The position numbers were made by a program, and so were the translations under genes. From contig CAJODA010000031.1 in the NCBI GenBank assembly GCA_905233745.1, forward strand, positions 1-36,370: a stretch of 36,370 nucleotides of DNA, written 5' to 3'. Source of the stretch: an uncultured Bacteroidales bacterium. GTDB lineage: Bacteria; Bacteroidota; Bacteroidia; Bacteroidales; WCHB1-69. Below, piece by piece: positions 17,055 through 36,370 of this stretch. The stretch's first letter is position 1, and each line of letters opens with the position of its first letter. Under the pieces are notes generated by a model. That model did not search any database. It saw only the letters and a program-made list of their open reading frames with translations, and was not told the DNA's origin.

Positions 17055-18329
17055 CTACAGCAGCATATCCCCTCTAATCCTATCCACCATCGTTTGCGAA
17101 ACGCCACACCCTCTCGCCATCTGCGGCCACTGGGAAACGGCTTCGCACACTTCATCGATAACAGATTTGGCATCCTTGATATTGTTTTGACGAGCAAAGA
17201 CAAGCAAATCATCGCGATTGATGTCATCAAATTTGCCGTTGACAGACATCTGGTGCGTGGCAGTCCATCCGCCATTAGGATTGTAGGCATAGCCCATATC
17301 GTATGCAGGTGAGAGCCGCCATCGACCATCTTCATCCATCAGGAAAGAGATGTTCTTAGTATGGTCGTCCTGATTGCGAACCACCACATTAAACACCATC
17401 CGACGGAACATCTCCGTTGCATCGGAATATGGCAGTCTCAATGCCCGCATCACGCCAAAGGCCTGTTCGTAGGAATATACACGATGGATTCGGTAGTCGT
17501 AGTGGGCCATGCCGCAGAGAGTCTGCATGTGGATTTTTTTGCCGTTCTTTCGGTCAAAACGTTTGGTGAGAAAATGTGCACGTCCATTCTCCTCAATCAA
17601 TGAACATTCCGACATGTTAATCCTACACTCTTTGGCTAGTTCGTAAAAGGAGTATTCCAGTCGGCCATAATTGCCCGTTTCCCTAAATCCAGCGGTCGCT
17701 GACACACCGTCCAACTTAATGAGGTAATAGTCGAATCCTTGCGGAGCTTCCACTTGTCCGGAGCGAACCTCACCAGTGACCTTGTCATAGGCAATGATAG
17801 CTTTAGCGCGCTGTCCACCGGCAGATGTTCCAAGCCGTAGAATTTCAGCGATGGCTGATTTCTTGTCGTCGTTCAAATTTACGCCAAAAGACGATTTCTC
17901 AGCCAACGCATCGCTTGCCACACTAACCAGCGAGTCTATCTCAAACCTGGCGTGAGGGTCGTATGGCATATCCATTGCTGGCTCAAATTCCAAAGCGCCC
18001 ATACACCGTTTGCCGAGGAAGCAAAGCGTCTCGATGGGATTGCTGCTTGTGCGACCCGTAAGTGCCAGCCAGCGGTCGAAGAGGGCGCGTCCGTATGTAT
18101 CTGGGAGTGAATCGGCTAACATGCCCGGAAGGCCTTTAAAAGTTTCTCTGTCCAGGTTGGCGAAAGAATAGACGCGACCTTCGCGGACAGGCATCATTAG
18201 CGGCGAGGGTTCCAGTCCGCGTCCCACAAAACGGCTGTCGTACTCAAAGCGGACGACATCATACTGGTCATCCCATCTGAATGTCCCCACAGGAAGACCA
18301 AACATGCTCACTTTAGCCACATCTACCAT
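17055..18329 (-). CDS. hipA: HipA-type serine/threonine kinase toxin
   Basis: 424-residue kinase toxin of a type II HipBA module; the E. coli family member phosphorylates glutamyl-tRNA synthetase and induces persistence. Seen: an N-terminal HipA domain (about 8-110, MPVREGRVYSF, LPGMLADSLPDTYG); a glycine-rich loop LGTSAGGQRAKAII (about 192-205) with the GGxRxK pattern; a catalytic NVVVRNQDDHTKNISFL (about 335-350, N-D-H-KN) and LSPAYDM as the metal-binding Asp. All key residues look intact, so the kinase is probably active. Its start overlaps the 3' end of hipB by 7 nt, which implies translational coupling. Confidence 0.92.
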   Translation of the reverse strand: MVDVAKVSMFGLPVGTFRWDDQYDVVRFEYDSRFVGRGLEPSPLMMPVREGRVYSFANLDRETFKGLPGMLADSLPDTYGRALFDRWLALTGRTSSNPIETLCFLGKRCMGALEFEPAMDMPYDPHARFEIDSLVSVASDALAEKSSFGVNLNDDKKSAIAEILRLGTSAGGQRAKAIIAYDKVTGEVRSGQVEAPQGFDYYLIKLDGVSATAGFRETGNYGRLEYSFYELAKECRINMSECSLIEENGRAHFLTKRFDRKNGKKIHMQTLCGMAHYDYRIHRVYSYEQAFGVMRALRLPYSDATEMFRRMVFNVVVRNQDDHTKNISFLMDEDGRWRLSPAYDMGYAYNPNGGWTATHQMSVNGKFDDINRDDLLVFARQNNIKDAKSVIDEVCEAVSQWPQMARGCGVSQTMVDRIRGDMLL

Positions 18330-18670
18330 GACGGTTCCTCCTTTTCAATTTTGCGAAGTACACTTGCCGCCCGTTTTCTGATCTTAGTTTTTGAAGCGTG
18401 TACCATTTCATAATATTCGTTCGGGCTCAGTTGCGGTTCGTCCACTAAAGATTGTAGCGCATCAAGCAGTTCCAATATTCGCAACACCCTCAACAGCGTG
18501 TCGAACGAGCCGATTTCGCCCTTTTCAATTTTTTTTACAGAAGATAGGGAGACCCCAGCCTCCTCGGCGAGGCGCTGCTGCGTGATATTCTGTTTCAGCC
18601 TTGTTTGTTTCAACCGTTCACCGATCCTGAATTGGATCACCGCGTCGGAGATCATATATATATTATCCAT
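18323..18670 (-). CDS. hipB: HipB-type XRE antitoxin
   Basis: 115-residue DNA-binding antitoxin. A helix-turn-helix of the XRE type spans about residues 15-70 (IGERLKQTRLKQNITQQRLA, EAGVSLSSVKKIEKGE), followed by a basic C-terminal tail (KTKIRKRAASVLRKIEKEE) rather than the short beta tail of E. coli HipB. It should bind its kinase partner and repress the promoter just upstream, where a 14-bp palindrome overlaps the -33 region. ATG 18670 is used; ATG at codon 6 is possible. Confidence 0.9.
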   Translation of the reverse strand: MDNIYMISDAVIQFRIGERLKQTRLKQNITQQRLAEEAGVSLSSVKKIEKGEIGSFDTLLRVLRILELLDALQSLVDEPQLSPNEYYEMVHASKTKIRKRAASVLRKIEKEEPSW

Positions 18671-22291: not shown

Positions 22292-23610
22292 ATCATTAGT
22301 GTCCACTAAAAAATTGGACGATTTATATTTGAATGTATAACTTAAAATAATAACAGTTCACTATTATCAATTTGTTCTTTGACATTGTTGAAGTTAGATA
22401 AGCCGAACAAGGTTTTCAGTGCGGTAGTATCTGTCAATGAGATACTTGTAATTTGGAGCATCTCGTAGATTGAACGTTCGACCCCCTGCTTTTTCTGGAC
22501 GATGGCCATCATGCAGTAGGCTGTTATCGCGGAGTATATCTGGATTCTAACGGCGTTCTTGGTTTCTCCCCAGAACTTTTTTATCTTGAGGTGCTGCTTG
22601 AGCCATTTGAAGAACAGCTCTATCTGCCAGCGGTTTTTGTAAAGGTCGGAAACTGTTACCGGTTTGATATCCAAAGCGTTGGTAAAGAACACGAATCTTC
22701 TTTTGGACTCCGCGTCCCAATAGACCACCCTGCGTATCCTGTCGGGATATTTCTTCCCGGTAAGCGTTCCGTCCATGTGGCCTATGGCATCCGAGAGGAT
22801 CCCCGAGTCTTTTGGGAACCTCCGCTTCCATCTCTCCGGCTTGAAGTCGTTTTTCTTCTTCCCTCTCACGACGAAGTAGGCTCCGATGCTCTCTATGTTG
22901 TGAAGACGCTTGAAGTCGTTGTGGCCTCTGTCGAAGATGTAGAAAGAGTTCTCCTCGTAAGGTATGGCATCCATCGCCTTCATGTCATGGACTCTCGCGG
23001 GAGTGATGTGGAAGAAGGTAGGGACCCGGGTCTCGATGTCATACAGCGTATGCACCTTGACTCCTCCCTTCCTTTTTCTGAACAATGCCCATTCAAAGAC
23101 GCTCAGACACAGGTCGATGGTTGTAGAGTCAAAGGCATAGACGTTGCCGCCAAGTTTGAAGATCTCAGTTGCTCTGCAATCACGGGCCTTTGTCACCACG
23201 CGGTAGGCGAACTCCTCGAAGATGCGGTAGTCGCGACTGCAGTTGGCCTTGGAGAGATTGTTCTTGGTCACTGCTCGCCCGAACCCGAGATGGTAGGCTT
23301 TCTCACAATGTGCCTGGGTGGCCAAAACCACATCCCTGAGGCTCTCCCGATTGGACAGTTGGCCGAACATCAGCACCGCAAGCTGATTCCAACAGGTGAA
23401 GTGTTTCACGTACCGGTTTCCGTCGTATTTGTTCGCTATCCTGAGGAACACGTCCTTGTCGATGAAGTCCAACAGTTGTGCGAACACGTATTTACCTTTG
23501 TGCATATTGCCATCGTTTGTTCAAATCAGCGCGCTCAAAAATACTCTGTAACTTTCTAACTTACAGTAATTTCAAAGAACCATTTCGATTTTTCAGTGGA
23601 CAGCAATGAT
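22292..23610 (-). mobile_element. IS4-family insertion sequence
   Basis: One transposase gene is bounded by imperfect terminal inverted repeats: 22292-22314 (begins ATCATTAGTGTCCACT) and the complement of 23588-23610 (begins ATCATTGCTGTCCACT), 20 of 23 positions matching. The conserved part may start at TGTCCACT (22300 and 23602). No direct target duplication is visible on either choice of ends, which may mean loss or rearrangement after insertion. Confidence 0.85.
22342..23505 (-). CDS. IS4-family transposase (DDE, DUF4372 N-terminus)
   Basis: 387-residue intact DDE transposase. The N-terminal DUF4372-like region reads FAQLLDFIDKDVFLRIANKY and LAVLMFGQLSNRESLRDVV. The catalytic set is visible: YAFDSTTIDL (first Asp), FYIFDRGHNDF (second Asp) and the IS4 signature Y(2)R(3)E(6)K, read as YKNRWQIELFFKWLK. 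No frameshift, so the element could still be mobile. Confidence 0.93.
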   Translation of the reverse strand: MHKGKYVFAQLLDFIDKDVFLRIANKYDGNRYVKHFTCWNQLAVLMFGQLSNRESLRDVVLATQAHCEKAYHLGFGRAVTKNNLSKANCSRDYRIFEEFAYRVVTKARDCRATEIFKLGGNVYAFDSTTIDLCLSVFEWALFRKRKGGVKVHTLYDIETRVPTFFHITPARVHDMKAMDAIPYEENSFYIFDRGHNDFKRLHNIESIGAYFVVRGKKKNDFKPERWKRRFPKDSGILSDAIGHMDGTLTGKKYPDRIRRVVYWDAESKRRFVFFTNALDIKPVTVSDLYKNRWQIELFFKWLKQHLKIKKFWGETKNAVRIQIYSAITAYCMMAIVQKKQGVERSIYEMLQITSISLTDTTALKTLFGLSNFNNVKEQIDNSELLLF

Positions 23611-23644
23611 CCAATAAAATAAATTGTATTTGCGGCGACAATTC

Positions 23645-24072
23645 TTATGTTCTTACGAAATTGATAGGCGCAACATAAACACCGTCTTCACGTTGGTAGG
23701 CTCCACCGACAGCCGTCAGCACCATCATAAATGAGGGCGACTTTTCATCACTCTTCTCTTCAATCTTTTTTTTCAGCGTTTTCAACGACCTGGCGCCTTC
23801 TTCTATCAACTCATCGCCACCCAATTTAATCTCAATGGCACCCCAACGGCCATCCTCCAAATGTACAACAGCATCGCACTCAAGGCCTGCATTATCGCGG
23901 TAATGACGCACCTCTCCGCCCAACGCACTCGCATACACCCTAAGGTCGCGCACAGCCATATCCTCGAAAAAAAGCCCAAAACTGTTCAGGTCACGAAGCA
24001 AGTCTTCAGGGGTCACATTCAACGACCTACAGGCAATCGACGTGTCCACAAAGTGTCGTGTGGGTGTGGACT
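23645..24072 (-). pseudogene. C-terminal fragment of a third DUF4143 ATPase
   Basis: Only the DUF4143 end remains: STPTRHFVDTSIACRSLNVT, FGLFFEDMAVRDLRVY, ALGGEVRHYRDNAGLECDAV, GAIEIKLGG and a C-terminal EDGVYVAPI. Full relatives are about 400-450 residues with an N-terminal Walker ATPase; here a TAG stop interrupts the frame just upstream and no P-loop is present. Upstream, paired ATTGAAAATCAT motifs and a TACGTTTG box on the same strand (24099-24155) look like a surviving promoter region, so an internal deletion is likely. The IS lies 35 bp beyond its 3' end. Confidence 0.8.
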
Positions 24073-24205: not shown

Positions 24206-24493
24206 CTATTTCACCGCCCTCACCTCCGTCACCCTACACTCCCCGTTCTCCATCTCCACAGTAACTGAGAATTTGAGTGTCACTTTAGGACTTTTGGCAC
24301 CGTAAAGCTCTGTAACGAAGTCGTGGTCCAGCACACGGGATATACGTTGTAGCAGCGACAAGTCGATATCCTGCCGCTTAAAGATGTCGTAAACGTTCTG
24401 CCGGTGGCAGTCCACCCGGCGGGCGAATTCGGCTACGCTCATGCCGGATGCTTCTACATATTCCTTTACCTTTTCGCCTGCGTGGACTTTCAT
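24206..24493 (-). CDS. XRE-family helix-turn-helix protein
   Basis: 95-residue regulator. An HTH spans about residues 8-60 (VKEYVEASGMSVAEFARRVD, then CHRQNVYDIFKR, LLQRISRVLDHDF), followed by a short beta-rich tail (VTLKFSVTVEMENGECRVTEV). No toxin-like partner is adjacent, so it may be a solitary antitoxin-like or phage-type repressor. A TATATTTG -7 box on the minus strand (24521-24528) lies 28 nt upstream of its ATG, just beyond the 3' end of the candidate RNA gene. Confidence 0.85.
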   Translation of the reverse strand: MKVHAGEKVKEYVEASGMSVAEFARRVDCHRQNVYDIFKRQDIDLSLLQRISRVLDHDFVTELYGAKSPKVTLKFSVTVEMENGECRVTEVRAVK

Positions 24494-24532
24494 GTCTTAT
24501 TTCTTAACAATAGGGGTTACCAAATATAACAC

Positions 24533-24763
24533 ACAAAAAAGAAAGTGGAGCCGTTATCCGACAGCATCCTCCGTGTAGGGCCTGGACCTCCCGTTTGCAA
24601 GACACTGCAGAACAAGCCCCACCTATTTGGCAATAAATACACAATAGGCAAGCTTGTTTTCCGAATATCCGTGCAAACATTGTAAACTGTCCAGGTTCAC
24701 CACGGCGGATAGGCGAAAACTCGCTTTCTTTTCTATAATATGCCTGCCTTCCGGCAGAACAGC
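24533..24763 (-). ncRNA. Candidate structured RNA, 6S-like layout
   Basis: Lies in a 470-bp gap with no convincing gene. Reading the minus strand: a promoter (TTTG at 24793-24796, TATATTTG at 24768-24775, 17 nt apart); a GNRA-type hairpin CUGCCGGAAGGCAG; then a closing stem AGAAAAGAAAG (24724-24734) pairing with CUUUCUUUUUU (24535-24545), whose 3' side is a U-run. Inside is a bubble with hairpin GCGAGUUUUCGC on the 5' side, then a long interrupted arm: UAUCC/GGAUG and CCGUG/CACGG with one mismatch; CCUGGAC/GUCCAGG; GUUUGCA/UGCAAAC plus GGAUAUU/AGUGUCU; and AACAAGCUUGCCUAUU pairing with AAUAGGUGGGGCUUGUU (one bulge, three G-U pairs), closed by a 15-nt loop. Length, closing stem, central bubble and long arm recall 6S RNA; identity is inferred. 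Confidence 0.68.
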
Positions 24764-24900
24764 GGGGCAAATATACAAAAAATAAAATCCCGCAAAAACC
24801 CGCCCCGAAAATCAACAACCCCATCTCCAACGGAAGCTAGTGGGCTGAGCTAGAGCGCTATCCGCAGAATCGGTGAATGTTACGTTGTCTGCCGACACAC

Positions 24901-24947
24901 ATTTTTGTCAAAAATCTTGATTATTTGACAAAAATGATGTATTTTTG
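24901..24947 (+). promoter_or_regulatory. Promoter and 12-bp inverted-repeat operator candidate for the AbiE-like antitoxin
   Basis: Perfect arms ATTTTTGTCAAA (24901-24912) and TTTGACAAAAAT (24924-24935) with an 11-nt spacer lie immediately before the -7 box TATTTTTG (24940-24947); a CTTG -33 candidate (24916-24919) sits in the spacer. AbiEi-type antitoxins are known to repress their own promoter through inverted repeats, so this is the expected place for such a site. Confidence 0.65.
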
Positions 24948-26693: not shown

Positions 26694-26725
26694 CAAATGT
26701 ACACAATTATTACAACACTATCAAA
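26694..26725 (-). promoter_or_regulatory. rfbA: rfbA promoter
   Basis: On the minus strand TTTG (26722-26725) and TACATTTG (26694-26701) are spaced 20 nt, a good match to the Bacteroidota -33/-7 pattern, ending about 50 nt before the rfbA ATG. The -33 box overlaps the last codons of the giant gene, so rfbA need not depend on read-through from it. Confidence 0.7.
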
Positions 26726-29700
26726 GCCCCTTTCAAATGATGGCGTCCTTTCTTATCGTCCAATTCGGTATAATATATAACATAATTATAGACATTCTGC
26801 CTTACAACACCATACCACTTGAAATTCTTGTCGTTGGAGTGGAATACCACCTCGCCCCAACGGTTTAGAATTGTGATCTCAAACTCGTCTATCAGACCTA
26901 TGCATCTCTCCGGAAGAGAGAAACAATCGTTATGGCCATCCAGTTTTCCCGGGGAAATCGCATTCGGCAAATACAAGACAAGCTCGCAAACGTCCACAAC
27001 ATAGGCCGACATAGACTGGCAGTCTCCCGTGGAAGCGGTAACCGAATAGACCCCCGGAGCCGTGACCTCGATATCCTGCGAGGTCTCTCCCGTGCTCCAT
27101 ACAAAATTCTCCATCGAAGAAAGAGCCGACAAGGTGGTGGACATATTATCACAGAAATCGGAAAGCGGCACCACACTCAAAGAGGTGTCCAAAACGGAAA
27201 GATCCAAGCTTACCACACTATCACACCCGTCTTGAGTTGAAAACAGGAAATTGAAAACGGCATGATGGGGCACGACGGATGTAATCACAGTGTCTATCTG
27301 TCCATTGATAAAATGGTACGGAAAGTCACTTGCACAGACCTCATCGTGCAAGTTTGTGAGTTGGGCAGGCAGGATGGCCAGGTTCATCACAATCACGCTG
27401 TCCGAACCGGCAGAGGCAGGCACCACGACGGTATCTGTTCCTGCATCGGAGAACTCAACGCCGTTCCATATCAAAGGCAGGGCGCTGGGGCAGACGGCAC
27501 TATCCAGCTCCACAGACACATTCAATATCACCGTGAGCTCCAAGGTCACGACACTGTCGCAGCCATTTGCGTTGGAAAGCATAAAACGGGACGTGGTGAG
27601 ATGCGGGGTTCCCACTGCAAAGACAGTGTCGATCTGACCATTCGTAAAATGATACGGCAGCTGGTTCTCCACAATCGTGTCGTAAAGCGCAGCCGAAGTG
27701 TTATGGTTCACATACACGTGCATGACCAACAAACTGTCAGCACCATTGGAAGCGGTCAGCACAACCGTGTCCGTTCCGGCACCGGTGAATCGGACATCAT
27801 TCCAAACCAAAGGAAGATCATTTTCACACACGGTACTATCCGCTTCCGCATTCGGATTTAGTAATACTGTAAGATTGAGGGAAACTGTACTGTCACAGCC
27901 GTTGTTACTGGCAAAATGGAAAATGGAGACCGATTCTTGGGGAATGTTGATTCCAAAAGTGGTGTCAACCAGACCATTCGTGAAATGATATGGCAATTGG
28001 TTCTGAACTATCGTATCATACAGCACGGTCGTATCGGTTCTGTTCACATGCAACGTCATAAGCACCACACTATCGCAATGCACGGCATTGGCGCCGGCCA
28101 GTATTGCACTTCCGGTTCCTGCCTCATAAAATGTAACGCCATTCCAAACTATCGGAAGATCGTTGTCACAAACCGTAGAATCCTGCACACTCATAGAGCT
28201 TTTGCGAATCGTCAGCCATAGCGTCTCCACAGAGTCGCATCCGTTAACAGTCTGACCATACCATTCGTATCTTCCCGACTCCCTATAAGGAGTATTATGC
28301 CAAATATACATATCGCAGGCTGTTTGGGTAATGTCAACATTATAACTCGGGGTAACCGTCAGAGCCAGCACAAGGACGCTTTCACAGCCACCTTGGGCTG
28401 GCATCTGGAAGCGGCAGGTGGAAAATGCAGGGGTTCCCTCCTCAAAGGTAGTGTCAATCTGGCCGTAAGTAAAATGATACGGCAATTCGTTTTCACAAAT
28501 GGACAATTGCTCCTGTATCTCAGCAACTGTATCAACCGTCAAATGCAACGTCACGAGGCTGTCGCATCCATTCTGAGAGGCAAGTGGAAAGTTGAAAGTC
28601 GAGTTATAGGATGAAACAACACTGATAATGGTGTCTCTTCCTCCGACATTGAAAGTATATGGCAAGTCCCTCACACAGATTCCCTCATGGATTTCTGTAT
28701 GGTATGTGTCATAGACAATGATCTTCTGCACCGCTCTGGCCACGTTCCCGCACGGGTCTGTAACAACCCAGGTCCGGAAAAGGGTGTCTGCCATGGTTTG
28801 ATTATCGACAAACAAATCATTATACGTAACCGAGAGGTCCTCCGTATCCGCACAATTGTCATCCAATGAGACAGGTGAACCTGTAATACTCGTATCTGCA
28901 TCATACGCCCCATTCGCGTTCCGACAAACGGCAACATCCCCGGGTTGACTAAATGTAGGTGCAATATTATCCCTGATAATATAACTGTATGTCCAGTTTT
29001 GCACATGTCCCGCACAATCTTCATACTTCCAAATATATCTCACCACTCCTCTGCAGCCAGTGACTTCCACTTCAACGGGCAACGCTGTCGGGACAATCGT
29101 ATCCGAACAGTTGTTCACCATCAGCGGAGGTGTGGGTTTAACCGTATCTGACAAGCAGGAGATATTAATTGACGAATTGTTCAACAGTGGCATCTCATCA
29201 GGAGAGACATGATAGGTATAGGTCCAAGTGTACTGCGTGTCACGAACCGTATAGTGATATACAAAAACGGAATCGCCACAGCCCGATTCAATATCACCCG
29301 TATTCTCTCCGGCCACCAGCGGAATCGTATCGCCACACGCTATCACTTCGGGCAGTTGGGGCGGAACCGCTTGTGACACACAATGTACAGATTCCTCACC
29401 GTTTTGTACGGGGAGAAAACAATCGTTGATAACAACCACCTCAAAAGAGGCCGTATCATTACACCCAAAGGTATTTGTCCCTGTTACCGTGTAGATTGTC
29501 GTCTCCTGAGGAGACACGGTGACAACTGGCGTGGTCACACCAGTACTCCAAAGATAACTGCCGGCCCCCATTGCAGTGAGCGTTGCGTCATGGCCGATCA
29601 TTATCAACGCATCTCCGCTGACGGTAACCACTGGCAAAGGATTGACGGTTACAGTCACCACATAGATATTGTTCTCTGCAAAAACAGTATCGGTATAGGT

Positions 29701-32700
29701 TCCCGGTCCAGAGAGCAGCTGGCCGTGCCAGTTAATCGTCTCACCCGGGCACAACGAAATGGTGGCATCCTCGATGACATTGAAAGGTATTACCGTAAGG
29801 TTAAGGGAGTATACACTATCGCAACCCGCTGTCGTGGTGAGCGAATCGTATGCTGTAACACCTCCATAGAACTGGCGACCGTGCCAATTGTAAGGCAGGC
29901 TGCCCTCCGGAACGGTCGCCGTTTCCGTGATGAAGTATATCGGATTAATGGTCACTGTCACCATGTAGATAATATTCTCGGCAAATACCGTATCGCTATA
30001 GACACCCTCTTCAGAAAGCAGGTGCCCGCGCCAACTTACGGTCCGGCCAGCACAAATCTCTATCGGGTTTTCTTCAACATAATTAAATGGTATTACGGTG
30101 AAATTGAGATAATAGACACTGTCGCAACCCGCATTTGTCAGAAGTGAATCATATAGGACAGTGTCTCCATTGAGCAAGTATCCGTGCCAGTTGAACGGCA
30201 GGCTGCCCTGCGGGTAGGACAAGTCTTCCGGAAAATAGTAGGTCGGATTGACGATTACGGTTACGACGTAGATATTGTTCTCAGAGAATGCAGTATCACG
30301 GTAGATGTCCGGCCCTGACAGAAGGTGTCCATGCCAGATTTCCGTCTCACCCGGGCACAACGAAATGGTGGCATCCTCGACGACATTGAAAGGTATTACC
30401 GTAAGGTTAAGGGAGTACACGCTATCGCAGCCCGCTCTTGTGGTGAGCGAATCATACGCCGTGGCACTTCCATAGAACTGGCGGCCACGCCAAACATAAG
30501 GCAGGCTGCCCTCCGGAACAGACAAATTGTCCTGAATAAAATAGGTTGGGTTGACCATTACGGTCACCATGTAGATTGTATTTTGAGAGAATGCGGTATC
30601 GCAGTAGACACCCGGTTCCGAAAGCAGATGCCCCCGCCAATTTGCCGTATCGCCAAGACACAACACTATTGGCGTCTCCTCAATGGTATCAAAGGGTATT
30701 ATCGTGAGATTGAGGACGAGAACGCTGTCGCAACCCACGACTGTCTGAAGGGAGTCATAGACCGTAGTATCCCCGCCGAGCTCATGTCCGTGCCAGATGT
30801 ACGGCAGGCTGCCCTGCGGGTAGGAGACATTTTCTGAAAAGTAATAGATTGAACTGACAATCACCCGCACAATATATATGCTATTCGCTGCAAATGCTGT
30901 ATCGCGATATGTGCCCGGATCCGAAATCAGGTGCCCGTGCCAATTTACCGTGTCGCCAAAGCACAACAACATAGGGGTTTCTTCAACAACATTAAAAGGC
31001 ACTACCGTAAGCTTGAGGAAAAGGACACTATCACAGCCTGCAACTGTTTGTAGCGAATCATAGATTGTCGCGTTATTATATAAATCACGTCCTTGCCAAT
31101 GGTATGGCAGATCGCCTTGAGCAACCTGAACATGTTCTGGGAAATAATAAGTAGGATTGACGGTGACTGTTACAGAACTTGAGGAAACACAACCTGTGGC
31201 AGTTTCCGTGACAACCACAGTATATACACCTGCGTTTGCAGGCAAAGCATGGTTGATGACAGGGTTCTGCAAAGTAGAGGTAAAGTTGTCAGGGCCGCTC
31301 CAAAGGTAAGTCACTCCCCCACTCTGGGTCTCGGCGAAGAGTTCAACATCCCCTCCGTTACATGGCGAAGTGCCTGAAGCCTCCACAGCCAATGTGCTTC
31401 CGACAGTGGTAACCAAGGCGGCAGTCGTGCTAACACACCCGTGACTAATATCACGAACCGACACAGTATGTTCACCTGCATTTAAGTTGGCAAAGGTATT
31501 GGAAGATTGGAAACCGCCTCCGTCAAGATCATACAAATAGCCACCGACGGGAGAGGTCACCGTAATGATGCCGTTGGATTCAGAGCAACTGGTATTGGGT
31601 GTAATGGAGAGTATCGGGGTTGCGGGCAAGGGATGAATAGTTAAAAAGAGGGTATCCACCTGCATACAACCGTTAGAATCCTCATGTCTGCAATAGTACT
31701 GACCTGATTCCGAGTACGTCTGCCCGTTACCGCTCACCCATGTATAGCTTCCGCATCTCTCTACGGTGTAGGATTGGTGCGAAGGATAATGAACTGTCAA
31801 GTGCAGGGTCACCACACTGTCGCAACCGCTGGCATTGGTGAACGTGTGGGTGAGGGCATCCGTGCTGGAGGTAATGTCCGTATGCTCGTACCAGTCGAAG
31901 CGGTCGCACGCAAACGCCGTCGTGTCGCCCGTGTTGCTGTGGCCCACCGTCAAATGCAACGTCACCACGCTGTCACAACCGCTGGCGTTCGTAAACGTAT
32001 GGGTCAATGAGCTCGTGCTGGAGGTGATGTTCGTGTGCTCGTACCAGTCGAAGCGGTCGCAAGCAAACGCTGTCGTGTCGCCCGTGTTGCTGTGGCCCAC
32101 CGTCAAGTGCAGGGTCACTACACTGTCGCAACCGGATGCATTGGTAAATGTGTGGGTGAGGGCATCCGTGCTGGAAGTAATGTTCGTGTGCTCGTACCAG
32201 TCGAAGCGGTCGCACGCGAACGCCGTCGTGTCACCCGTGTTGCTGTGGCCCACCGTCAGGTGCAGGGTCACCACACTGTCGCAACCGCTGGTGTTCGTGA
32301 ACGTGTGGGTAAGGGCATCCGTGCTGGAGGTGATATTCGTATGTTCGTACCAGTCGAAGCGGTCGCACGCGAACGCCGTCGTGTCACCCGTATTGCTGTG
32401 GCCCACCGTCAGGTGCAATCTTACGATACTGTCACATCCGTCAGGCATCACGCCTTCAAAAACATGCGTGGCGGTCTCTGCGGATGACGTATAATCTATC
32501 CCATACCATGTGAAAACATCGCATGCGACTGCGCTGGTGTCCCCGATTCTAGGCTCACATTCGCTCACGACCACAGTAACACTAACAGGCTCTGAAGAAC
32601 AGCCGTCGGAAGTTCCTACCACGGTATATGTGGTAGTAGTTGACGGTGCAACGGTAATAGCTGCCGATGTTTCACCTGTACTCCACTGGTAGTTATCCGC

Positions 32701-35700
32701 TCCGGAGGCCGTCAATGTGGTGCTATTACCCGTAACAACGGCAATATCACCATTAATGGTAACCCCCGGAGTATGGTTAATCGTCAGGTGCAGGGTCACC
32801 ACACTGTCGCAACCACTGGCATTGGTAAACGTGTGGGTAAGGGCATCCGTACTGGATGTGATGCTCGTGTGCTCGTACCAGTCGAAGCGGTCGCACGCGA
32901 ACGCCGTCGTGTCGCCCGTGTTGCTGTGGCCCACCGTCAGGTGCAACGTCACTACTGAGTCACAGCCGCTGGCGTTCGTGAACGTGTGGGTGAGGGCATC
33001 CGTGCTGGAAGTGATGTTCGTGTGCTCGTACCAGTCGAAGCTGTCGCAAGCAAACGCTGTCGTGTCACCCGTGTTGCTGTGGCCTACCGTCAAATGCAAC
33101 GTCACCACAGAGTCGCAGCCGGCGGTGTTGATGGTGCGGAACGTTGCCGTGTCCGTGCTCTCTGAGAAAGTTCGACCATGCCACACAAAGCTGCCACACG
33201 ACGTGGCAATAGTATCGCTTGCGGTGGACGGATTCACCGTCAAATGCAGCGTCACCACAGAGTCGCAACCACAGCTTGATGTTCCGGTTCTAGTGTAAAT
33301 CCCTGATGTTGTCAGCACTGTGTCAAAAAGCACGACTGATTCATTCTCACAGATAATGGAGGAGAAATCGACTGGATCTGGACTTACTTTCCATGTGTAG
33401 GTAACGCTGACCGGAGTCGCACTCCCCCCGCACGCGTTCTCATAAGTCGCCGTCCAGGTTTGCGACCGGTCACAACCCTGCCCCTCAACACCTCCCGGCG
33501 TCACCGTCGCCGTCGGATTCTCAAAACACGCATCCGTCACCGTGAAAGTCGGCGGCACAATGGTCTGAGGATCACATGCGCCATTGGGGTCACTGCTGGC
33601 ATCTACAGCAATACTGACCGGACAAGACGGATAACTCAGCCACTCACAGTCGCCCTCCACCTCCACCAGTTCTTTCCGATATAACTGAATGGCTTTTTGG
33701 CGAGTATAGGTATCTGATTTATAATAACGAAAACGACTTTGACCAGCAGCACTATTAAAACGCAAATAAGCACCACCGCTACCCACAACATCAACATCAC
33801 CACCATTGTAACTAATGGTATTGTCATACTGGGTAGTTTGAGAACTAGGCATACCATTTGCATCCGCGGTCTGACCTATATAGTAACCGCTTGCCGAACG
33901 AATCGTGTATGCATTGGCATTTCCTTGATTAATCGTAAAAGTGTACGGTGCCAGAGCGGCAGCGTTGTTGACATAATTGCCATTGAAGGTAACATTCTGA
34001 TAATTATTGACGGCATCCAATGTCGTGCGGGAACCGTCAAAAACCAAGCCACCATCATGATAGGCAATCAAGTACTCTCCGCTCCAGTTGGCGGGTGCTG
34101 CGGTAACCTTGGCATACCGGACTTCTTCCTCTATTTCACAGATTTTATAGACAGCATACAATGTAATATCCGTCGAGGCCAAATACTGTTCCCCGGCCAA
34201 ATACAACGGTGTCGGTTCGGTTGAAGTCGCCGCATTGACCGGTGTTGTGGACCAGCCGGCGAACACGTGATTCGAAGCACATGGAACAGCTGGCGGCAGA
34301 ACAATGCCGTCATGGCAATCCATCATCATGGAAGGAATCGCACAAGTGCCCCCACACGGGTCAAAGGTGACAACTGGCCGCGGATTCACCACAATGCTGA
34401 AAGTGTCCACCTCAGCGCAACCATCCGCTGATGTGACGGTCACGTAGTAATCAGCGCTCTGTGAAGGCGAAACCGTAATACTGTTGGTCGTCGCACCCGT
34501 ACTCCAGGAATACTGGCACTCACCATTTCGGACAACCACAACCGAGTCAAGGAAAAACCGCTGGCGCAAATCCTTGTTTCCTATAGTAATCGTACTGTTT
34601 GCCGTCGCTCCAGTAAGAGAAACATAATCGTATTCCGTATAGGGGTCACTGAAGTCAGATACCGGAATATATTGTTGCATAACCGTATCATTGTCCACTT
34701 TCAGATAAAACCATGGATGTTCATTGGGATTATCCCAACCACGCATCCACATTTTCACCGTGAAAGGTTGTGACAAATCCATCGAGCGAGAGGTAATATA
34801 ACCGCCACCTCCCGATTGGACATCTCCGAAACGAAGATGTCCTCCTGCCAAAAACACATGCTCATTATCACAATTGGGAAAATTGGGAAGAGTACATTGA
34901 TATTTTTGGTTCGATCCCGAACCACTATCATCATCGCCAGTCAATATGGCAGCAAATCCCTCACTGAGGAGAATTGAATCTTCCGCAATGCAATCGACAG
35001 TCAGGATCACTTCATCTCCCACACATATCGTATCGGAAGGGGATACATGCACAGAGGTGTTTATCTGGTCCACCTGAACCGTAGTGGATGCCTGTGCCGA
35101 GCAATATACCCCATTCAAAGTTTTCACAAGCGTGTAAGTTCCATTCATCTCAAGCGAAGCCGGATATATTATGGGATTCACCTCCGAGGACACCCATCCA
35201 TTGGGTCCCGTCCATGAGTATGAAACATCATCTTGCGGATCCTCACAAATCAAGTGAATCGTGTCGCCCGCACAGTAGGGGCCGTCATTGGTCACGGATG
35301 CTTCCACATTCCCGACAGTCAAATGCAAGGTCACCATAGAGTCGCAACCTGCCGCTGCTTGATAGGTATGTGTCAAGGGCATCGCCGGGGTTGAAGTGTA
35401 GGTGACACCATTCCAAGTGTAACTATCGCAAGCATATTCCCAGACTTCCACATCGTGCTGGGCATACACATGCACGGGAACGACAGTGTCAAACGAGCAC
35501 CCCCCGGAGTCATAAAAATACAATGAATATTGAAGCGTTGTATCCTGTTGCAGCGTTGCCGGAGGGGATATGGTGAATGAAGAATCGCTTACTATCGTGG
35601 TCCATATATCATCAGGAACAATCCGGGAAACATGGAATGCGTTGCTGGACAAGAGTTCTTCCGTCAAAGCCAGTTCCCAACCAAAAATATAACCATTATC

Positions 35701-36370
35701 AATATTATAACCGTCCACCACTTCAATATACCAATCGCCATTAAGCGGGCAGCCTACCAAGCTTTGAAAAGATTCATCCGGATGATAGAATTGCGTGCCG
35801 GCTGCCACATCGGAAGAATCAACAATACTATTGTGAATATTGGCACTCCTATATACGAAACCACCATCTGCCGCATAGACATACCCCTGTGTGGTGTTGT
35901 TCGACCAACAGTAATTCCATCCAACCCCAGGGGCATTGTTGGGAGAGCTTCTATCACAGTACGCATTATTATCTTGGTAATCATAAGCTTGTCCAAAATA
36001 GGCGTACCTATAATTATCCCCATTCTGCCATCCGGTGGCAGAAGCCGGAATCTGCGCATTGCATTCCGCAGAACCACTTCCTGACCAGCGCATAATATCC
36101 GCCTTTTGTCCGTTGGGACACGTAACATTGATGTAGATATCTCCAATATAGGAGTGTTCCATGTTTATTTTCACATAGTAAATATCGTTCACATTTCGAA
36201 CATAAGCATTGTCACTGTAGTTCGTAAAAGTCAGCATGGAACGATAGGAGCACCCGTGCGGTTCGCAAGGGATGCCATCTGGCAGGAAAGCGGTGTCAGA
36301 GGAGGATAATGTGGACTGATTCTGGCTAAGCACTATCTCGCTGCCCGATTCATGGCTACTCACAATCGTG
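26710..36370 (-). CDS. Giant modular T9SS cell-surface protein, 5'-truncated by window edge
   Basis: More than 3,217 residues, open at the right edge, so the signal peptide lies outside. Domains in order (residues from the first GTG at 36363): P-like jelly roll, about 25-235; PKD/Ig-like modules; a second jelly-roll-like segment, about 457-620; an InlB/Listeria-Bacteroides type repeat with VFAGWSTTPVN, about 663-740; a beta-rich domain, about 745-900; 51-residue repeats, about 1030-1530; Ig-like segments; five 100-residue repeats, about 1735-2245; a HYR-like region; about eight degenerate repeats with LPYHFTNGQIDT; and a C-terminal domain (LYLPNAISPGK...ITILNRWGEVVF) typical of gliding-motility/type B T9SS sorting signals. 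Roughly two dozen copies of a GCDSVVTLHLTV-like strand recur. Likely a secreted adhesin or matrix protein anchored at the outer membrane; ligand unknown. Base composition varies by block, the repeats being GC-rich. Confidence 0.9.
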   Translation of the reverse strand, partial: TIVSSHESGSEIVLSQNQSTLSSSDTAFLPDGIPCEPHGCSYRSMLTFTNYSDNAYVRNVNDIYYVKINMEHSYIGDIYINVTCPNGQKADIMRWSGSGSAECNAQIPASATGWQNGDNYRYAYFGQAYDYQDNNAYCDRSSPNNAPGVGWNYCWSNNTTQGYVYAADGGFVYRSANIHNSIVDSSDVAAGTQFYHPDESFQSLVGCPLNGDWYIEVVDGYNIDNGYIFGWELALTEELLSSNAFHVSRIVPDDIWTTIVSDSSFTISPPATLQQDTTLQYSLYFYDSGGCSFDTVVPVHVYAQHDVEVWEYACDSYTWNGVTYTSTPAMPLTHTYQAAAGCDSMVTLHLTVGNVEASVTNDGPYCAGDTIHLICEDPQDDVSYSWTGPNGWVSSEVNPIIYPASLEMNGTYTLVKTLNGVYCSAQASTTVQVDQINTSVHVSPSDTICVGDEVILTVDCIAEDSILLSEGFAAILTGDDDSGSGSNQKYQCTLPNFPNCDNEHVFLAGGHLRFGDVQSGGGGYITSRSMDLSQPFTVKMWMRGWDNPNEHPWFYLKVDNDTVMQQYIPVSDFSDPYTEYDYVSLTGATANSTITIGNKDLRQRFFLDSVVVVRNGECQYSWSTGATTNSITVSPSQSADYYVTVTSADGCAEVDTFSIVVNPRPVVTFDPCGGTCAIPSMMMDCHDGIVLPPAVPCASNHVFAGWSTTPVNAATSTEPTPLYLAGEQYLASTDITLYAVYKICEIEEEVRYAKVTAAPANWSGEYLIAYHDGGLVFDGSRTTLDAVNNYQNVTFNGNYVNNAAALAPYTFTINQGNANAYTIRSASGYYIGQTADANGMPSSQTTQYDNTISYNGGDVDVVGSGGAYLRFNSAAGQSRFRYYKSDTYTRQKAIQLYRKELVEVEGDCEWLSYPSCPVSIAVDASSDPNGACDPQTIVPPTFTVTDACFENPTATVTPGGVEGQGCDRSQTWTATYENACGGSATPVSVTYTWKVSPDPVDFSSIICENESVVLFDTVLTTSGIYTRTGTSSCGCDSVVTLHLTVNPSTASDTIATSCGSFVWHGRTFSESTDTATFRTINTAGCDSVVTLHLTVGHSNTGDTTAFACDSFDWYEHTNITSSTDALTHTFTNASGCDSVVTLHLTVGHSNTGDTTAFACDRFDWYEHTSITSSTDALTHTFTNASGCDSVVTLHLTINHTPGVTINGDIAVVTGNSTTLTASGADNYQWSTGETSAAITVAPSTTTTYTVVGTSDGCSSEPVSVTVVVSECEPRIGDTSAVACDVFTWYGIDYTSSAETATHVFEGVMPDGCDSIVRLHLTVGHSNTGDTTAFACDRFDWYEHTNITSSTDALTHTFTNTSGCDSVVTLHLTVGHSNTGDTTAFACDRFDWYEHTNITSSTDALTHTFTNASGCDSVVTLHLTVGHSNTGDTTAFACDRFDWYEHTNITSSTSSLTHTFTNASGCDSVVTLHLTVGHSNTGDTTAFACDRFDWYEHTDITSSTDALTHTFTNASGCDSVVTLHLTVHYPSHQSYTVERCGSYTWVSGNGQTYSESGQYYCRHEDSNGCMQVDTLFLTIHPLPATPILSITPNTSCSESNGIITVTSPVGGYLYDLDGGGFQSSNTFANLNAGEHTVSVRDISHGCVSTTAALVTTVGSTLAVEASGTSPCNGGDVELFAETQSGGVTYLWSGPDNFTSTLQNPVINHALPANAGVYTVVVTETATGCVSSSSVTVTVNPTYYFPEHVQVAQGDLPYHWQGRDLYNNATIYDSLQTVAGCDSVLFLKLTVVPFNVVEETPMLLCFGDTVNWHGHLISDPGTYRDTAFAANSIYIVRVIVSSIYYFSENVSYPQGSLPYIWHGHELGGDTTVYDSLQTVVGCDSVLVLNLTIIPFDTIEETPIVLCLGDTANWRGHLLSEPGVYCDTAFSQNTIYMVTVMVNPTYFIQDNLSVPEGSLPYVWRGRQFYGSATAYDSLTTRAGCDSVYSLNLTVIPFNVVEDATISLCPGETEIWHGHLLSGPDIYRDTAFSENNIYVVTVIVNPTYYFPEDLSYPQGSLPFNWHGYLLNGDTVLYDSLLTNAGCDSVYYLNFTVIPFNYVEENPIEICAGRTVSWRGHLLSEEGVYSDTVFAENIIYMVTVTINPIYFITETATVPEGSLPYNWHGRQFYGGVTAYDSLTTTAGCDSVYSLNLTVIPFNVIEDATISLCPGETINWHGQLLSGPGTYTDTVFAENNIYVVTVTVNPLPVVTVSGDALIMIGHDATLTAMGAGSYLWSTGVTTPVVTVSPQETTIYTVTGTNTFGCNDTASFEVVVINDCFLPVQNGEESVHCVSQAVPPQLPEVIACGDTIPLVAGENTGDIESGCGDSVFVYHYTVRDTQYTWTYTYHVSPDEMPLLNNSSINISCLSDTVKPTPPLMVNNCSDTIVPTALPVEVEVTGCRGVVRYIWKYEDCAGHVQNWTYSYIIRDNIAPTFSQPGDVAVCRNANGAYDADTSITGSPVSLDDNCADTEDLSVTYNDLFVDNQTMADTLFRTWVVTDPCGNVARAVQKIIVYDTYHTEIHEGICVRDLPYTFNVGGRDTIISVVSSYNSTFNFPLASQNGCDSLVTLHLTVDTVAEIQEQLSICENELPYHFTYGQIDTTFEEGTPAFSTCRFQMPAQGGCESVLVLALTVTPSYNVDITQTACDMYIWHNTPYRESGRYEWYGQTVNGCDSVETLWLTIRKSSMSVQDSTVCDNDLPIVWNGVTFYEAGTGSAILAGANAVHCDSVVLMTLHVNRTDTTVLYDTIVQNQLPYHFTNGLVDTTFGINIPQESVSIFHFASNNGCDSTVSLNLTVLLNPNAEADSTVCENDLPLVWNDVRFTGAGTDTVVLTASNGADSLLVMHVYVNHNTSAALYDTIVENQLPYHFTNGQIDTVFAVGTPHLTTSRFMLSNANGCDSVVTLELTVILNVSVELDSAVCPSALPLIWNGVEFSDAGTDTVVVPASAGSDSVIVMNLAILPAQLTNLHDEVCASDFPYHFINGQIDTVITSVVPHHAVFNFLFSTQDGCDSVVSLDLSVLDTSLSVVPLSDFCDNMSTTLSALSSMENFVWSTGETSQDIEVTAPGVYSVTASTGDCQSMSAYVVDVCELVLYLPNAISPGKLDGHNDCFSLPERCIGLIDEFEITILNRWGEVVFHSNDKNFKWYGVVRQNVYNYVIYYTELDDKKGRHHLKGALIVL
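29630..31160 (-). repeat. Five ~100-codon tandem repeats in the giant gene
   Basis: Each unit has the pattern Y(Y/F)...QG(S/D)LPY.WHGR..., AGCDSVY.LNLTVIPFN, a CxG(D/E)T.NWHGHL segment and NNIYVVTVIVNP. Units 3 and 5 are far more alike than the rest: nucleotides near 29751-29880 and 30351-30480 are nearly identical at an offset of 600 bp, showing duplication of a two-unit block. Confidence 0.85.
31780..32440 (-). repeat. 153-bp tandem repeats, array 1
   Basis: The GCDS codons recur at 31821, 31974, 32127, 32280 and 32433, an exact 153-bp (51-codon) period. Units encode GDTTAFACDRFDWYEHTNIT followed by SSTDALTHTFTNASGCDS and are nearly identical in DNA except for the fifth, which diverges. 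Confidence 0.93.
32780..33270 (-). repeat. 153-bp tandem repeats, array 2
   Basis: Period points at 32808, 32961 and 33114 (153 bp), then 33264 (150 bp). Same unit as array 1, separated from it by an Ig-like insert (about 32440-32800) with the sequence GDIAVVTGNSTTLTASGA. Confidence 0.92.

Follow-up and report, generated by a model that had tools for sequence, protein, structure and literature searches.

A Bacteroidota family of covarying structured RNAs found mostly upstream of genes, with a candidate attenuator-type leader of a small HTH gene

Introduction

Trp-type three-strand attenuators are an example of attenuator leaders, and Bacteroides promoters follow the consensus TTTG-N17-23-TAnnTTTG, which includes a −33 element. 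Multicopy trans-acting RNAs of this group are exemplified by FopS, which, in the available text of PMC11697453, consists of a single-stranded 5' stretch with a seed, plus a terminator hairpin.

Here we analyze a structured RNA encoded in the window, i.e. the whole stretch of 36,370 nucleotides under study, which an earlier note, made from the sequence alone, had interpreted as a 6S-like RNA gene. A search of the published literature, to the extent of the text accessible, returned no recognised account of the family to which this RNA belongs; specifically, the family is not described in the accessible portions of PMC7366714, PMC2864571, PMC9723704, PMC5771137, PMC11697453 and PMC8040213, and an unnamed earlier listing is possible, for example among the 3161 supplementary candidates of PMC8040213.

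Results

A structured RNA bounded by a promoter motif

Two covariance models were used to delimit the element: R1, built from a MAFFT alignment of 17 cores of window-type copies (the window subfamily), and R2, built from the alignment of a shorter subfamily and thus without any window-type copy. The element and its immediate surroundings are as follows.

24538..24733, minus strand: core structured RNA according to R1 (R2 gives 24535-24729)
24793..24796, minus strand: possible −33 promoter element TTTG, 17 nt from the −7 box, read in the sequence
24768..24775, minus strand: −7 box TATATTTG, read in the sequence; TATnTTTGC at the same place in 18/18 copies
24741..24761, minus strand: hairpin at the 5' end of the predicted transcript, predicted in 18/18 copies with differing sequences
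24521..24528, minus strand: second −7-like box TATATTTG, between the U-run and the HTH start codon, read in the sequence
24206..24493, minus strand: downstream gene (ORF) for a small Cro/C1-type HTH protein (HTH_3/HTH_26 in Pfam)

The interval claimed in the earlier note folds at −99.9 kcal/mol, compared with −75.3 on average for shuffled sequences (sd 5.2; z = −4.73), and none of the 200 shuffles was as stable. Among 17 aligned copies, 18 of the 58 predicted pairs show double-sided changes that preserve pairing; the claimed long arm is borne out by these compensatory changes, as is the minus-strand structured RNA by its folding energy. The claimed −7 box is likewise there, TATATTTG being present at + strand 24768-24775, and the hairpin that had been placed on the 5' side of a bubble corresponds to a conserved AAGCG/CGCTT hairpin. 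The separate hairpin at 24741-24761 lies within the interval claimed earlier, outside the arm and at the predicted 5' end. The absence of a good ORF also held up: a 108-aa minus-strand frame (24504-24830, TTG start) is supported neither by the indel nor by the substitution pattern. A protein-coding reading of the region was rejected, given that indels between copies are not multiples of three and that the substitutions are structure-like.

In the 18 full window-type copies, the −7 box TATnTTTGC occupies a constant position, similarity drops off upstream of it, and the sequence immediately following it is predicted to form a hairpin in every copy (18/18), so that the conserved unit looks like a promoter motif plus an RNA. 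This set excludes L005 (truncated), L034 (a tandem near-duplicate of L023), and L035, L037 and L038 (cut or truncated). In the wider family of 41 sequences, TAnnTTTG was found within 120 nt upstream of 31 elements, compared with 1/41 downstream, 4/41 on the reverse strand and 8% in shuffled sequences; the ten elements without a −7 box within 120 nt include six of the ten sequences from the genus on which R2 is based. In the window, the second TATATTTG box at 24521-24528 is, judging from its sequence, a possible second promoter.

R1 scores the window element at 195.7 bits (this copy was among the sequences from which R1 was built), and R2 independently recovers it at 24535-24729 with 26.5 bits (E = 0.0059) and yields nothing further in the window up to E = 10; all E-values of the covariance models are rough, owing to short calibration. 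R1 also gives 20.2 bits on the opposite strand of the element because the arm is near-palindromic. In Rfam 15, nothing in the window reached a gathering score, the best hit at a relaxed threshold being to an unrelated microRNA family (E = 0.92). Similarly, no family reached its gathering score on any of the scanned elements of the family, hits above gathering all falling beside the element; the sub-threshold hits that do overlap an element belong to microRNA and U6 families (E = 0.47-1.5) and look like chance.

A four-helix junction with paired loops

Alignment of the copies yields a compact junction with the following parts.

24711..24726, minus strand: P0 hairpin of the AAGCG/CGC(T) type, from the subfamily alignment; helix 1 of the wider family
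24699..24710, minus strand: P1, 5' strand, from covariation in both alignments
24566..24576, minus strand: P1, 3' strand, from covariation in both alignments
24682..24700, minus strand: P2 hairpin GUGAAC-CUGGACA-GUUUAC, its loop complementary to the P4 loop
24578..24592, minus strand: P4 hairpin GGG...CCC, its loop GUCCAG complementary to the P2 loop
24593..24681, minus strand: P3, the long arm with apical helix S1:S2, from the subfamily and wider-family alignments

P1 closes the junction of P1 to P4. In the 41 R2-type sequences, 96.2% of the cells are paired and 29 of the 40 pairs show double-sided changes; the covariation score is 0.595 versus 0.171 and was reached by 0/500 shuffles, and when the partner strand was slid by 1-3 columns, pairing fell to 36-45%. 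Because the R2 structure guided this alignment (A9), its counts are biased in favour of R2; the MAFFT alignments of 17 window-type cores and of 10 sequences of the short subfamily were made without such fitting, and in the latter, 13/40 pairs are doubly changed. L027, in which the basal stem is degenerate, was excluded from alignment A4 and from R1, and L205, whose core is identical to that of L202, from alignment A8.

Pairing between the P2 and P4 loops is found in 41/41 members of the wider family, with two to four pair types at each of the six positions, and in 16-17 of 17 members of the window subfamily. The inner stems of P2 and P4 are supported less strongly than the loop pairing, since they are nearly invariant within the R2 set and the changes between subfamilies, where the stem sequences differ yet remain complementary, were read by eye.

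One strand common to two helices

Within P3 and downstream of the junction, four segments define two alternative helices.

24648..24657, minus strand: S1 strand CAAGCUUGCC, pairs with S2
24613..24623, minus strand: S2 strand GGUGGGGCUUG, common to the apical helix and the terminator
24545..24551, minus strand: S3 strand GCUCCAC, 3' half of the terminator stem, invariant in the window subfamily
24535..24544, minus strand: U-tract UUUCUUUUUU, read in the sequence

The earlier note had assigned the U-run to the 3' side of a closing stem. This stem is A/U-rich and nearly invariant in the window subfamily, where it accordingly shows next to no covariation, and it was not found in the short subfamily. 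The U-run fits better as the tail of a putative terminator whose stem strand, GCUCCAC, is complementary to GUGGGGC in the arm.

Comparative data bear on this pairing at several levels. An S2:S3 helix (score ≥5.5) is present in 41/41 members of the wider family, compared with 23.7% of shuffled tails, and the own partners of the 41 sequences pair better than all 2000 permutations; in 37 of the 41, the helix is directly followed by a U-tract, defined as five or more U among the next 8 nt. Pairing in the S2:S3 stem amounts to 97.0% in the short subfamily (9 pairs, 11 rows), compared with 26-40% in slid controls. Two outer pairs of the nine are doubly changed, in 3/11 rows (L202, L204 and L205, with L202 and L205 sharing one core sequence), and S1 bears the matching change in the same three rows. 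The covariation score of this stem was reached by 0/500 shuffles, the number of doubly changed pairs by 224/500 and the number of pair types by 442/500. In the window subfamily, the five S2:S3 pairs tested are paired in 17/17 sequences and none varies, so that support there comes by homology, the covariation being that of the wider family.

An energy model without pseudoknots always favours S1:S2, with a mean probability of 0.95 versus 0.002 for S2:S3 across the 41 sequences, and 0.84 versus about 0 in the window. Competition between a terminator strand and an alternative helix is therefore apparent at the level of sequence only, whereas the energy model prefers the non-terminator helix. According to this model, the terminator may never form unaided; given the preference for S1:S2, reaching the terminated state would take assistance or a kinetic window, unless that state is itself a pseudoknot. 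S2:S3, with strands about 60 nt apart, was not picked up by a simple terminator scan that considered loops of 3-8 nt.

Copies and spread

The genome contains five full copies, including that in the window, one of them divergent. A DNA search recovered copies on C6 (83% identity), C1 and C13 (81% each), along with partial matches on C20 (truncated; 77% over 94 bases) and C15 (divergent; 69% over 103 bases). The truncated copy (L005, C20:16717-16810) retains the −7 box along with about 100 bases at the start, and stands upstream of another gene with a signal-peptide-like start. Among this genome and 20 relatives, DNA matches at E = 0.001 were obtained in 9/21; one of the nine, G020, in which only 29 bases of the upstream part matched, is discounted.

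Within the genus, R1 detected the window subfamily in 31/40 genomes, as many as 11 matches coming from a single genome, and within the order in at least 11/295. A pattern scan of named genomes gave at least 118 stretches; 22 with titles suggestive of Bacteroidota were submitted to R1 and 11 matched, mostly, among the matches listed, from metagenome-assembled genomes (MAGs) of ruminant-gut Bacteroidales. Weak R1 hits led to the shorter subfamily and hence to R2, which represents a wider superfamily and was found in at least 88/295 genomes of the order (65/183 genera) and, at a stricter cut-off, in at least 29/296 genomes drawn from the phylum. The scans of the order and the phylum applied stricter filters and scored at most 8-9 candidates per genome, so that these counts are lower bounds. 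Several copies lie at or near contig ends (G179:C26 and C45; G030:C16 and C6; G008:C3 and C14); repeats may have broken the assemblies, in which case true copy numbers would be higher.

Position relative to genes

To count neighbours, ORFs of at least 90 aa were called mechanically, longest first, with starts trimmed behind the element, and identical rules were applied to a control in which the element was mirrored. The 74 elements counted exclude L205 and L215 (exact duplicates) and L216 (same place as L203); near-identical orthologues, e.g. L107 and L180, were kept. A same-strand gene starts within 150 nt downstream of 55/74 elements, compared with 14/74 mirrored, and a same-strand gene is next at any distance for 64/74, compared with 34/74 mirrored. 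For the remaining 19 elements, the same-strand gene is farther away in 9 cases, the next gene is on the opposite strand in 8, and in 2 there is none before the end of the contig or locus. Most members thus combine a promoter motif upstream with a same-strand gene downstream, which is the profile of a 5' leader.

This bias is relevant to the first alternative, namely, that the elements are a multicopy family of free trans-acting sRNAs, each with its own promoter and terminator, which merely tend to occupy intergenic sites. Such a family is suggested by the −7 box and the U-run, which delimit a unit of about 225 nt, by the occurrence of up to 11 matches per genome, by the existence of multicopy sRNA families in Bacteroides (FopS, in the available text of PMC11697453), and by five copies beside an hflX-like gene (identified by eye; L007, L107, L179, L180 and L181). 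Within 150 nt, none of these five has a gene on its own strand: four of them face a gene on the opposite strand, and for the fifth the same-strand gene is 209 nt away. Nevertheless, the excess of same-strand genes over the mirrored control and the recurrent pairing with HTH genes described below argue against free sRNAs; moreover, no accessible conserved seed was seen, the most conserved strands sitting in helices. We consider this alternative unlikely.

A mobile, MITE-like repeat, the inverted-repeat shape of which would be a feature of the DNA, could also account for multiple copies with varied neighbours, for the truncated copy on C20 and for A/U-rich ends that resemble short terminal repeats. 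However, the double-sided changes keep RNA pairs, G-U among them, making the constraint at the RNA level clear; the conserved region begins at the −7 box, and its orientation is biased to the downstream gene. No match was found in a phage collection searched with one window-type query or in a plasmid collection searched with one wider-type query, and 25 viral contigs picked by DNA pattern gave no R1 match. On the strength of the RNA pair covariation, the promoter-bounded conservation and the orientation bias, a MITE was rejected as the main reading, and we regard it as very improbable.

Outside the 74-element set, nine phylum-level loci were inspected. An ORF of more than 70 aa starts within 150 nt in three of these (L240, L243 and L248); in five others (L241 and L244-L247), the next long ORF, by eye that of a SusC-type receptor, lies 216-366 nt downstream.

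Pfam was run on 30 chosen downstream proteins, a selection rather than a random sample. Secreted or surface functions are represented by Fib_succ_major, Por_Secre_tail (which exceeds the curated cut-off in only one of five proteins), BspA-type LRR_5, an outer-membrane barrel and a C10 peptidase; further matches are to ResIII/HSDR, EVE-HNH, PLD/SNF2 helicase, RmuC, dynamin, LytTR and radical SAM-SPASM, and five of the 30 had no match at E = 0.001. These genes are very mixed for a metabolite riboswitch. Their diversity, many of them being secreted, together with the constant preference for S1:S2, would suit a leader that binds a protein or modifies RNA polymerase (acting through processive antitermination, mRNA stability or coupling) and contains no on/off attenuator; such a leader alone leaves unexplained the likeness of S3 to S1 and the U-run present in 37/41 members, and appears to us improbable.

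In three loci (L228, L230 and L233), a DUF805-type RNA lies about 25-120 nt downstream of the element, such that two leader motifs stand in series; the DUF805-type match is to RF03081 and, in L233, to RF02914, just under its gathering score.

The HTH partner and the neighbourhood in the window

The HTH gene starts 41-45 nt after the window element, depending on the model used for the element end. When its protein was searched against 40 genomes of the genus, matches were obtained in 21, returning 30 loci, and a same-strand upstream element is present at 13 of these. Twelve are within 60 nt, one of them (L269) with E = 0.096 only; at the thirteenth (L252), the element is 424 nt away and an HTH-like start can also be read directly behind it. 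HTH_26 scores above the Pfam cut-off in 4/4 partner proteins tested and in the window protein. The RNA also occurs together with the HTH gene (82-83% protein identity) in G039 and G023, while the neighbours read there differ. An element of the second type on C7 of the same genome also precedes an HTH-like sequence, the frame of which appears by eye to be broken. As an alternative to 6S, the earlier note had suggested a new RNA family linked to an AbiE/XRE island: the link to a small HTH gene holds (12/30 loci within 60 nt), but the family extends far beyond the island. The AbiE assignment itself did not survive, the gene on the other side of the element matching DUF6577 in Pfam.

Several further features of the window were recorded. 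A perfect 13-bp inverted repeat, CATTTTTGTCAAA/TTTGACAAAAATG, at 24900-24936 near the start of the DUF6577 gene is possibly an operator. At 17055-18670, an HTH gene is followed by a HipA-like gene (HipA_C, Couple_hipA), forming a hipBA-type toxin-antitoxin pair. At 22342-24049, a DDE transposase with DUF4372 adjoins a C-terminal fragment of a DUF4143 protein, an arrangement that suggests insertion-linked gene loss. Finally, 26710-36363 is a 3217-aa open frame with many repeat units of the NTGDTTAFACD type, which is likely to encode a secreted surface protein.

The window RNA and 6S

In the window subfamily, the basal stem, asymmetric bubble and long arm superficially resemble 6S RNA, the main proposal of the earlier note, under which the window RNA would bind RNA polymerase. 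The Rfam 6S and 6S-Flavo models gave no match in the window, and neither RF00013 nor RF01685 exceeded its cut-off in any of the 21 genomes (0/21 each). In control genomes, RF00013 was over its cut-off in 4/14 and RF01685 in 0/14, so that the silence of RF01685 is weak evidence alone. In this genome, RF01685 gives a weak hit at C1:64699-64826 (22.8 bits, E = 0.909), with a zapA-like gene on one side and an RNase Y-like gene on the other (by eye); it aligns with the candidates of relatives, those in G001 and G018 lying between the same two genes, again by eye. The place beside zapA, where the ssrS locus would be expected, is thus held by this C1 candidate and not by the window RNA. Six loci that had been selected through weak hits to 6S or 6S-Flavo have no match with R1 or R2. 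Given this separate candidate, the failure of the 6S models to exceed their cut-offs, the non-overlap with R1 and R2, and a basal stem that is not seen in the short subfamily, the 6S identity is not supported, and we hold it to be extremely improbable.

Discussion

We favour, with confidence slightly above even, the interpretation that the window RNA serves the HTH gene at 24206-24493 as its 5' leader and is one member of a family of attenuator-type leaders that extends across Bacteroidota. Computation demonstrates the promoter motif, the conserved fold, the loop-loop pairing, the S1:S2 and S2:S3 pairings and the mostly leader position. Under the attenuator interpretation, RNA polymerase would start at the −7 box near 24768 and make a leader of about 225 nt, which would adopt the four-helix junction P1-P4, including the loop pairing between P2 and P4, before a decision point is reached. 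As long as S2 is kept in the apical helix with S1, transcription could continue into the gene; if S2 is released, it would pair with S3 directly before the U-run and transcription would stop. We infer that S1:S2 and S2:S3 are mutually exclusive in vivo and set read-through, with a ligand, a protein or a condition presumably driving the switch. In the window, the second −7-like box could bypass the leader.

More tentatively, the family may constitute an orphan leader class of riboswitch scale in Bacteroidota, combining a kissing-loop four-way junction with a three-strand terminator switch, through which one signal would reach surface-secreted, HTH, and DNA-processing or defence-type genes together; this broader proposal is a possibility that we put forward at less than even confidence. 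In either case, a strongly covarying family, reaching 11 matches in a single genome of one genus and found in at least 88/295 sampled genomes of the order, has no Rfam 15 match at gathering score on the scanned elements. Surface and secreted proteins, HTH regulators and restriction-type genes are among those downstream of it.

Among known systems, the family resembles riboswitch and attenuator leaders in general, with which it shares the 5' leader position, a compact junction and a strand common to two presumably exclusive helices, one of them with a U-run; it differs in that the scanned elements have no Rfam 15 match at gathering score and in that the downstream genes do not form one pathway. 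The FopS sRNAs of Bacteroides, as presented in the available text of PMC11697453, are likewise multicopy, with a Bacteroidetes promoter and a 3'-end terminator, whereas the window family has a large junction fold and is mostly found just upstream of genes. With 6S and 6S-Flavo RNAs (RF00013, RF01685), the window RNA has in common a length of about 200 nt and a long imperfect hairpin, but it is unmatched over the cut-off and the genome has its own candidate by the zapA-like and RNase Y-like genes. Bacteroidales-1 RNA (RF01693) is also an RNA of Bacteroidales, of uncertain role according to the accessible part of PMC2864571, and gave no match in the Rfam searches of the window and the scanned elements. 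The DUF805 and DUF805b RNAs (RF03081, RF02914), which are of the cis-regulatory class in Rfam and lie downstream of the element in the three loci noted above, are a separate short motif that does not overlap with the element.
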